In this document: positions 18,239 to 58,250 of the stretch, in pieces | Layout: each line of letters begins with the position of its first letter | Numbering within the stretch: the first letter of the stretch is position 1 | NCBI GenBank assembly: GCA_903893815.1 | Contig: CAITNS010000047.1 | Span: forward strand, 1-64,000 | Source: an uncultured Bacteroidota bacterium | GTDB taxonomy: Bacteria; Bacteroidota; Bacteroidia; B-17B0; Aurantibacillaceae | Length of the DNA: 64,000 nucleotides | Direction: 5' to 3' | Made by a program: the position numbers and the translations under genes | The notes under the pieces: generated by a model | Seen by the model: the letters and a program-made list of their open reading frames with translations, nothing else | Database searches by the model: none | Told to the model about the DNA's origin: nothing

Positions 18239-18261
18239 TTGTCACACTGCGCGTAGGTGAA
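18239..18261 (-). repeat. REP-like family A copy 1 (degenerate)
   Basis: TGTCACACTGCGCGTAGGTG resembles the reverse of the family core CTTCGACTCCGCTCAG with several mismatches. It faces the intact copy 20 bases away, forming a decayed inverted pair between mdh and gyrB. Confidence 0.55.
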
Positions 18262-18280
18262 GTATTTTCGTTTTAGCCTG

Positions 18281-18305
18281 CCCTTCGACTCCGCTCAGGG
18301 TGACA
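18281..18305 (+). repeat. REP-like family A copy 2
   Basis: CCCTTCGACTCCGCTCAGGG followed by TGACA: an intact family A copy located just after the gyrB stop (minus strand). Confidence 0.9.
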
Positions 18306-23338: not shown

Positions 23339-23364
23339 AATATCTCTTTTTGTTCTCGACAACC

Positions 23365-23387
23365 ACTTCGACTCCGCTCAGTGTGAC
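23365..23387 (+). repeat. REP-like family A copy 3
   Basis: CACTTCGACTCCGCTCAGTG followed by TGACA, between the TPR gene stop and the barrel gene start. A short partner (CTCGAAGTGAC) follows, giving a partial hairpin within the putative operon. Confidence 0.88.
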
Positions 23388-23405
23388 AGCTCGAAGTGAC
23401 AAATT

Positions 23406-31994: not shown

Positions 31995-32354
31995 TTATGT
32001 TTTGTCACCCTGAGCGGAGTCGAAGGGCGTTCTATTTTTTCTATAATTTGTATGCGAAGACTCATTAATACAAACTGCTAATTCTTTTATCTTATCCCAA
32101 TTCTTTTCAATCAATGCTTCTTTCTTTTTCCTTGTCCAACCTTTTACTTGCTTTTCAAAAGCAATTGCTTGTTTTACATCTTGAAACGGTTGATAAAAAA
32201 CTAATTCAACTGGTCTTTTGTCAAAAGTATAGGCTGAATCATCTAATGAGTTATTATGCTCATAAACCCTTCTTTCAACATTATTTGTTACTCCTGTATA
32301 GTATGATTTATCAGAGCATTTAACAATGTACACGAAGTAATTAAATATTCTCAT
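31995..32354 (-). CDS. GIY-YIG nuclease-domain protein with repeat-encoded tail
   Basis: The ATG at 32354 gives 119 aa. The single GIY-YIG domain occupies residues 1-90: YFVYIVKCSDKSYYTGVTNN, then VERRVYEHNN and the Glu-bearing AIAFEKQVKGWTRKKKEAL. These are stand-alone UPF0213-type proteins of unknown target. Residues after about 92 are not part of the family: the end (PFDSAQGDKT) is encoded by the REP-like repeat at 32004-32029. A second copy of the repeat, inverted, lies 11 bases upstream of the ATG, so the gene is enclosed by an inverted repeat pair. Confidence 0.93.
   Translation of the reverse strand: MRIFNYFVYIVKCSDKSYYTGVTNNVERRVYEHNNSLDDSAYTFDKRPVELVFYQPFQDVKQAIAFEKQVKGWTRKKKEALIEKNWDKIKELAVCINESSHTNYRKNRTPFDSAQGDKT
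32004..32029 (-). repeat. REP-like family A copy 4 (downstream of GIY-YIG gene)
   Basis: The core CTGAGCGGAGTCGAAG flanked by GTCACC. It encodes the last residues (FDSAQGD) of the GIY-YIG protein and is inverted relative to copy 5. Confidence 0.95.
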
Positions 32355-32364
32355 TTTACACAAA

Positions 32365-32389
32365 GGCTTCGACTCCGCTCAGCCTGACA
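32365..32389 (+). repeat. REP-like family A copy 5 (upstream of GIY-YIG gene)
   Basis: GGCTTCGACTCCGCTCAGCC followed by TGACA. It is inverted relative to copy 4 with the GIY-YIG gene between them. Confidence 0.95.
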
Positions 32390-58192: not shown

Positions 58193-58250
58193 TGTCACGC
58201 TGAGCGGAGTCGAAGCGACTTATTTGCCTTCGACTCCGCTCAGGCTGACA
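58193..58250. repeat. REP-like family A copies 6 and 7 as a tight inverted pair
   Basis: TGTCACGCTGAGCGGAGTCG (58193-58212, continuing AAG) and CCTTCGACTCCGCTCAGGCT (58227-58246, continuing GACA) are inverted copies separated by 11 bases, forming a long imperfect hairpin just after the dehydrogenase stop. Flanks carry A runs on the plus strand, so it is not a standard terminator for that gene. Confidence 0.95.

Follow-up and report, generated by a model that had tools for sequence, protein, structure and literature searches.

Small GIY-YIG nuclease genes flanked by clade-specific hairpin repeats: a probable counterpart of RAYT/REP systems

A gene for a small GIY-YIG nuclease was found within an inverted pair of REP-like repeats in a 64,000-nucleotide stretch of DNA from an uncultured Bacteroidota bacterium (the whole stretch is hereafter called the window). 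Homologous genes are associated with such paired repeats, the repeat type follows the nuclease clade, the repeat stems covary as hairpins, REP units are inserted within other REP units, and the gene is present at different loci in related genomes. Altogether, the data suggest that small GIY-YIG enzymes spread hairpin repeats around bacterial chromosomes. They are best read as describing a GIY-YIG counterpart of RAYT/REP systems, in which association and specificity are observed directly, whereas an enzyme that cuts and mobilises the repeats is inferred. Together with the hairpin on either side, the gene probably constitutes an autonomous mobile unit, a 'GIY-YIG REPtron', whose nuclease would cut and spread its REPs.

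The nuclease gene occupies positions 31995-32354 on the minus strand, encodes 119 aa from an ATG (122 aa from an upstream TTG) and matches the Pfam GIY-YIG family PF01541 (5.2e-19). Downstream, a REP unit of the form CC-CTTCGACTCCGCTCAG-GG-TGACA, read on the minus strand at 32003-32027, overlaps the 3' end of the gene; upstream, its inverted counterpart GG-CTTCGACTCCGCTCAG-CC-TGACA lies on the plus strand at 32365-32389, and the tags point outward. The 16-mer CTTCGACTCCGCTCAG itself brackets the gene as exact copies at 32010-32025 (minus strand) and 32367-32382 (plus strand), and these copies, together with the Pfam match, bear out an earlier note on this DNA that had placed a GIY-YIG gene inside an inverted repeat pair. 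The C-terminus had been said there to be encoded by the repeat, and indeed the protein ends in RTPFDSAQGDKT, of which the PFDSAQGD part is translated through the flanking repeat copy. Repeat-encoded tails, a point raised for the homologues as well, were found in 35 of the 105 distinct genes that have a repeat core downstream. In an AlphaFold2 model of mean pLDDT 83.5, the repeat-encoded tail scores mostly below 50; because it is predicted to be disordered and differs by repeat type, we take it to be a by-product of tight packing.

The same 16-mer recurs elsewhere in the window, where all 6 matches at up to 3 mismatches are exact (0.08 expected). The earlier note had counted five gene-less copies: four are exact (18283, 23366, 58200 and 58228), and the fifth proved to be a degenerate partner, TGTCACACTGCGCGTAGGTGAAG. 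A gene-less, REPIN-like inverted pair spans 58193-58250 (units 58193-58217 and 58226-58250), another REP pair spans 18239-18305 (the degenerate arm at 18239-18261 and an intact unit at 18281-18305), and at 23353-23401 on the plus strand a B-type REP (23353-23363 and 23389-23401) holds an A-type REP (23364-23388) in its loop. The source genome (G000, 3.69 Mb) carries 40 exact copies of CTTCGACTCCGCTCAG and 61 at up to one mismatch, and none of a reversed control pattern. It contains six Pfam GIY-YIG matches, four of which are short GIY-YIG genes. The window gene, on contig C47, and the gene on C69 are flanked by the window repeat core, the gene on C53 is flanked by a different repeat (TTCTCGATAC...TACTCGAACTGACA), and the gene on C40 lies among tRNA-like fragments. 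The palindromes surrounding the C69 gene (L032, 1310-1900) are of the GGTGGCTGAGCGGAGTCGAAGCCACC kind and share the window repeat core without the TGACA foot. The C40 gene (L033, 1250-2000; G000:C40 near 166939-167151) adjoins a tRNA-Met gene, with tRNA-like fragments repeated on both sides, and looks as though it were linked to a tRNA-derived repeat.

Reading 30 exact-copy contexts showed that the full window-type unit is longer than the 16-mer, comprising 25 nt of the form NN-CTTCGAC-nnn-GCTCAG-N'N'-TGACA. Most contexts read NN-CTTCGACTCCGCTCAG-N'N'-TGACA; 8 of the 30 have a CCACC/CTACC-like outer stem instead, so that the genome-wide 16-mer count mixes two families. Among distinct A-type sites (TGACA; middle three bases free), the flanking dinucleotides are Watson-Crick paired at 112/115 and 98/115 (shuffled maxima 50 and 59), and among B-type sites (TCTCGAC...GCTCGA) at 69/69 and 63/69 (shuffled maxima 39 and 34), with orthologous copies included in both sets, so that the sites are not independent. 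The middle triplet of the A-type sites is TNC in 104/115. The two types differ at the same stem position, which reads CT/AG in A and TC/GA in B. Since the stem bases vary and still pair, the unit behaves as a hairpin with the fixed foot TGACA. As single-stranded DNA, individual units of the A and B types show no folding advantage over shuffled sequences (z -0.70, -0.27 and 0.20), and the structural case for the window repeat family therefore rests on covariation; the inverted repeat pair folds strongly (z -8.0), and E-type and CGTC-type units fold well (z -4.2 and -4.9). The repeats read are mostly intergenic. Gene-less pairs in the loci examined follow no single arrangement, with tags outside in 36 and inside in 54. 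None of the 36 tag-outside pairs shares its outer dinucleotide, but shuffling gives only 1.3, and gene-flanking pairs with matching dinucleotides exist (e.g., L167, L168, L182 and L196); hence, no rule restricting pairs to non-identical arms is claimed.

At the protein level, the residues of the GIY-YIG motif are conserved in the alignments together with an arginine, a histidine and a glutamate; the glutamate, which is invariant, is E67 of the 119-aa form, within AIAFEKQ. Alignment A1 comprised 20 of 22 rows (without L101 and L106) and alignment A3 15 of 27 rows, stop codons being among the reasons for exclusion. A single GIY-YIG domain of about 100 aa with conserved motif residues is characteristic of the UPF0213 type, and this is what the window protein has. 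NCBIfam returned no family for it. A profile search against the PDB recovered UPF0213 structures (1zg2, 9.3e-21; 1ywl, 1.7e-16) and, weakly, SLX1 (3.7e-4). Foldseek, run with the predicted model, likewise pointed to UPF0213 (1.9e-5 and 3.0e-3) and then to Slx1 chains (0.007-0.03). The UPF0213/YhbQ/YazA single-domain proteins share the fold and have a similar length; they differ in that the members from E. coli and B. subtilis have no flanking repeats. SLX1, which is not known to be mobile, shares the GIY-YIG fold and comes next after UPF0213 in these model-based matches. According to the titles of its PDB entries, it is a eukaryotic (yeast) structure-specific endonuclease that acts on branched DNA and works with SLX4.

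The association of this family with paired repeats extends well beyond the window. With a limit of 300 bp to each side and a score of at least 14, paired repeats flank 118 of 143 distinct homologous genes and 13 of the 189 small ORFs taken from the same loci as controls; most of the homologous genes examined thus have adjacent repeats, the opposite of what the earlier note had named as a refutation. Before duplicates were removed, the counts were 120/145 and 13/189; L038 (identical to L037) and L231 (same locus as L081) were dropped to reach the final 143, and genes without 300 bp on both sides were left out throughout. In the bacterial family to which the window belongs, homologues at E<=1e-8 are present in 60 of 87 genomes, a patchy distribution. 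The 87 genomes gave 132 matches, of which the stronger part was analysed as 75 gene entries from 76 loci, four of them reached through the Pfam search of G000; weaker relatives may be flanked less often. Two loci, L035 and L036, were left out, as tblastn showed no homologue there. In the 72 entries with full 300-bp flanks, among which one gene was counted twice (L031 and L038, dropped later), inverted arms scoring at least 16 were found in 34, compared with 0 of 1600 random positions, and arms scoring at least 14 in 42, compared with 7 of 1600. Furthermore, in a set of named loci consisting of the best 80 of 577 confirmed stretches from one contig scan, paired repeats, inverted or direct, reached a score of at least 14 in 60 of the 74 with full flanks, compared with 17 of 1600 control positions. 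These loci are mostly from Bacteroidota, with others from Ignavibacteria, Nitrospinaceae, Nitrospirae, Phyllobacterium and another Proteobacterium, labels that need care because many are metagenome bins. The flank counts leave out 30 loci from the phylum-wide search.

Orientation favours outward tags. When the nearest canonical unit was scored for 154 genes, tags pointed outward on both sides in 52 and inward on both in 6; in a further 54 a canonical unit was missing from both sides, and 42 were mixed or one-sided. Taken by side, the tag of the nearest canonical unit points outward in 68/84 cases upstream and 72/89 downstream. Five Bacteroidota genomes (G234, G152, G140, G229 and G237) have 10 to 14 matches each to the nuclease family, numbers in keeping with a multiplying element.

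The repeat variant tracks the nuclease clade, not the genome. Along the tree order, read by eye, the repeat type switches with the nuclease clade. In a direct comparison (n=47), the repeat was more similar to that of the nearest nuclease relative in another genome in 41 cases and to that of a paralogue in the same genome in 2, with 4 ties. This sample was derived from 74 genes, of which 62 had comparable arms and 48 a same-genome paralogue among the genes analysed, one of these being set aside for having no nearer relative in another genome. Removal of 8 cases with a nearly identical relative (distance <0.1) left 33, 2 and 4. Between genomes, protein distance and repeat similarity gave a Spearman coefficient of -0.297, compared with 0.002 (sd 0.032) after permutation. 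Several duos may occur in one genome: G000 has three nucleases with three different repeat types.

Repeat copy number was in turn higher where a gene is flanked by the corresponding core, in line with the link to nuclease presence that had been proposed. A-core copies have a median of 20.5 in the 10 genomes where this core flanks a gene vs 0 in the other 77, and B-core copies a median of 10 in 13 genomes vs 0 in 74, a contrast that is partly circular because the flanked gene adds its own copies, and in which core-flanked genes were assigned by eye. With respect to the presence of any homologue, the difference is modest (p=0.0093 for both A and B). Many A cores occur without a detected cognate gene in G071 (44), G008 (29), G069 (17), G075 (15), G031 (15), G012 (13) and G001 (13), as do many B cores in G073 (54), G076 (37), G072 (22), G048 (22) and others; G076 holds a short, stop-containing remnant of a homologue.

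Signs of mobility were seen both for the repeats and for the gene. For instance, at locus L002 of G000 an A unit lies within a B unit, and the orthologous place in G073 (L296) holds the B unit uninterrupted; in G072 (L297) a different unit occupies the same B loop. A clean placement in a B loop is seen in G080 (L078), where TTCTCGACTGC and GCTCGAACTGAC border an A unit of 25 nt. Five nested A-in-B cases were recognised, four by pattern (L002, L013, L078 and L018, the case at 23353-23401 of the window) and one by eye (L030), and relatives of the L013 locus are without a B-REP at the corresponding place. The units nested in apical loops (L078, L002, L013, L018, L030 and L297) lie at about the same position each time. 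The REP apical loop is suggested to be a preferred landing site.

The clade-A gene is found at one locus in G000, G070 and G073 and at two further loci in G068 and G080. In relatives, the sequences neighbouring the G000 locus are joined within 53 bp (G069) and 135 bp (G071), and no nuclease match was found at that locus in G075 and G080; conversely, the neighbour of the clade-A gene in G080 is also present in G000, there without the nuclease gene. The downstream arm is the same in the five clade-A genomes through TGACA, and the DNA beyond it differs among the three loci. As regards the gene-less pairs, the place of 58193-58250 carries an A-type pair in G072, a B-type pair in G076, a decayed pair in G071 and G069 and none in G080, where the position orthologous to 18239-18305 likewise has no repeat. 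Neither a target-site duplication nor an exact rule for the junctions could be made out at the orthologous places of the window pairs or at the nested loci. In Azospirillum lipoferum 4B, a nuclease gene with its REPs lies between sufB and sufC; neither is found between these genes in A. ramasamyi, A. oryzae and Azospirillum sp. B510, and the intergenic sequences differ among these relatives, so that no exact junction can be given for the insertion. In Shinella PSBB067, a GIY-YIG gene also lies within the span matched by sufB-sufC. Sphingomonas parapaucimobilis has a DUF559 gene between sufB and sufC (L283, 1363-1773), in the same place as the GIY-YIG unit of A. lipoferum.

Homologues from a plasmid collection, hand-picked for breadth from two sets of records (14/52 and 10/33), have paired repeats at a score of at least 14 in 16 of 24 loci, compared with 16 of 507 control positions. 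Flanked genes occur in Methylobacterium (2), Planktothrix, Sphingomonas, Sphingobium (2), Sinorhizobium sp., S. meliloti, Shinella (2), Novosphingobium, Rhizobium CIAT894, Neorhizobium, N. gonorrhoeae, Azospirillum and Aeromonas caviae; unflanked are B. subtilis yazA, E. coli yhbQ and the homologues from Spirosoma, Cupriavidus, Salinivibrio, Acetoanaerobium, R. tumorigenes and Photobacterium. Given these 8 of 24, and the 25 of 143 distinct genes without paired repeats at a score of at least 14, not every member of the nuclease family belongs to such a system. In the 3.7-Mb S. meliloti record, all 4 repeat matches (up to 3 mismatches) lie around the gene, within the 805 bp of 1704967-1705771; of the 12 matches in a 788-kb Shinella record, 4 are found around the gene. 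The same repeat spelling had no match in five other records, because the repeats there are spelled differently.

Several of these repeats fit the CGTC-tagged REPs, which, in the available excerpts of Di Nocera et al. (2013), 'apparently lack a dedicated transposase' and for which no transposase gene flanked by them is described there (PMC3733652). The superfamily's terminal motif is CGTC, TGTC or CCTC. The flanking repeats read CGTCAT... in Shinella, Rhizobium, S. meliloti, Azospirillum, Aeromonas and Neisseria, and the window repeat carries TGTC. Stems of 8-9 bp, as in the excerpted description (PMC3733652), occur in the alphaproteobacterial cases; in the Shinella and S. meliloti repeats (CGTCATCC...GGATCCA), such stems were read directly together with AT first pairs and a CCA-like tail. 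In addition, GIY-YIG genes with such repeats around them were found in species or genera named in those excerpts, namely N. aromaticivorans, A. lipoferum, S. meliloti and Neisseria (PMC3733652). The window repeat shares the TGTC tag but has a bulged stem and variable, not AT, first pairs, and therefore seems related to the CGTC superfamily without being a strict member of it. In other phyla, a nuclease/repeat duo of this kind probably stands behind the CGTC-tagged REPs.

The closest known parallel is the REPtron, that is, RAYT/TnpAREP with its GTAG REPs and REPINs. Both systems consist of a small enzyme gene flanked by short tagged palindromes, with inverted pairs, an imperfect palindrome beside a conserved tag, and gene-less copies genome-wide. 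In both, the enzyme gene is flanked by its cognate REPs, and the repeat type co-evolves with the enzyme; TnpAREP and REP are described as co-evolved duos in the available excerpts of PMC8266576. The resemblance to REPIN/RAYT that the earlier note had seen thus extends to architecture, specificity and repeat shape, while the enzyme is unrelated and its mobilising role is putative. The REPtron enzyme is an HUH transposase, whereas a GIY-YIG nuclease is present here, and the tag is GTAG there and TGACA/TGTCA or CGTC here. No covalent strand-transfer chemistry is expected of the GIY-YIG enzyme, and none is known among GIY-YIG enzymes. The only Pfam match of the gene is GIY-YIG, with no HUH or tyrosine transposase, which excludes RAYT membership. 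Intron homing was discarded, as the window has no Rfam match at gathering scores; a GIY-YIG homing endonuclease in an intron or a conserved coding target was likewise set aside, the gene being intergenic, between REPs. The earlier note knew of no established description of a nuclease-repeat link, and none connecting GIY-YIG genes to REPs was found among the open-access papers listed, with preprints outside the search. The term GIY-YIG is absent from the available excerpts of the 2025 RepRanger paper (PMC12306157) and of the 2018 HUH endonuclease survey (PMC6006769).

In the proposed mechanism, the nuclease would recognise its own REP hairpin by the TGACA/TGTCA foot and the clade-specific stem pairs and would cut the hairpin when exposed, the presumed substrate being folded single-stranded DNA. 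Cutting would help both single 25-nt REPs and inverted REP pairs to spread, the loops of other REPs being one kind of insertion target, and the nuclease gene would ride in the spacer of an inverted REP pair. Since no ligating activity is known for GIY-YIG nucleases, host replication or repair would join the product at the new site. Several nuclease/repeat duos could work side by side in one genome.

Three other explanations were weighed against this one. The GIY-YIG gene might be a homing-type parasite that cuts REPs and copies itself into REP pairs, the REPs spreading by other means. GIY-YIG is a classic homing nuclease class, other REPs do sit in REP loops, and the same intergenic place carries different REP types in different species. 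This explanation is nonetheless unlikely: the gene lies between complete inverted units and not inside a split one, the repeat type tracks the nuclease clade, one S. meliloti record has the repeat only around the gene, and the excerpted 2013 survey gives no transposase gene flanked by CGTC REPs (PMC3733652).

More doubtful still is a host enzyme for hairpin processing or repair that stays near its targets for regulation or genome care and moves nothing. The closest folds, UPF0213 and the structure-specific nuclease Slx1, would suit such a role, as would the E. coli record, which names YhbQ a DNA damage response exodeoxyribonuclease; yet the occurrence of several paralogues in one genome (up to 14 matches), whose repeat types often differ, a patchy presence in 60/87 genomes and a changing genomic position are hard to reconcile with it, and the E. 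coli and B. subtilis members have ordinary gene neighbourhoods without such repeats. That chance, or intergenic hot spots shared by repeats and small genes, brought the two together is scarcely credible. The mostly intergenic location of the repeats and the pairing around 13/189 small ORFs in the same loci are what such an account can draw on; against it stand the 118/143 flanked nuclease genes, the clade-specific repeat types and the outward orientation, and the three controls (random positions 7/1600 and 17/1600, small ORFs 13/189) exclude it.

An autonomous unit whose nuclease cuts and spreads its REPs therefore remains the preferred reading. With somewhat less assurance, we favour the broader view that GIY-YIG/REP duos form a phylum-spanning class of mobile elements, parallel to RAYT/REP systems and chemically different from them, in which a nuclease of some 100 aa, capable of neither ligation nor strand transfer, would move hairpins of 25-30 nt, each clade reading its own stem pairs and other REP loops being among the landing sites. 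If true, such a class would explain the CGTC-tagged REPs as well as many of the palindromes that are common between genes in Bacteroidota, and a GIY-YIG nuclease in the role of RAYT would mean that selfish hairpins of the REP type have emerged together with unrelated enzymes. Small proteins whose only annotation is 'GIY-YIG nuclease family protein' or 'excinuclease ABC subunit C' would thereby gain a suggested function. These findings provide a candidate enzyme for CGTC-tagged REPs as well as for several palindromes of Bacteroidota, and the matched pairs of nuclease and hairpin lend themselves to tests in vitro.
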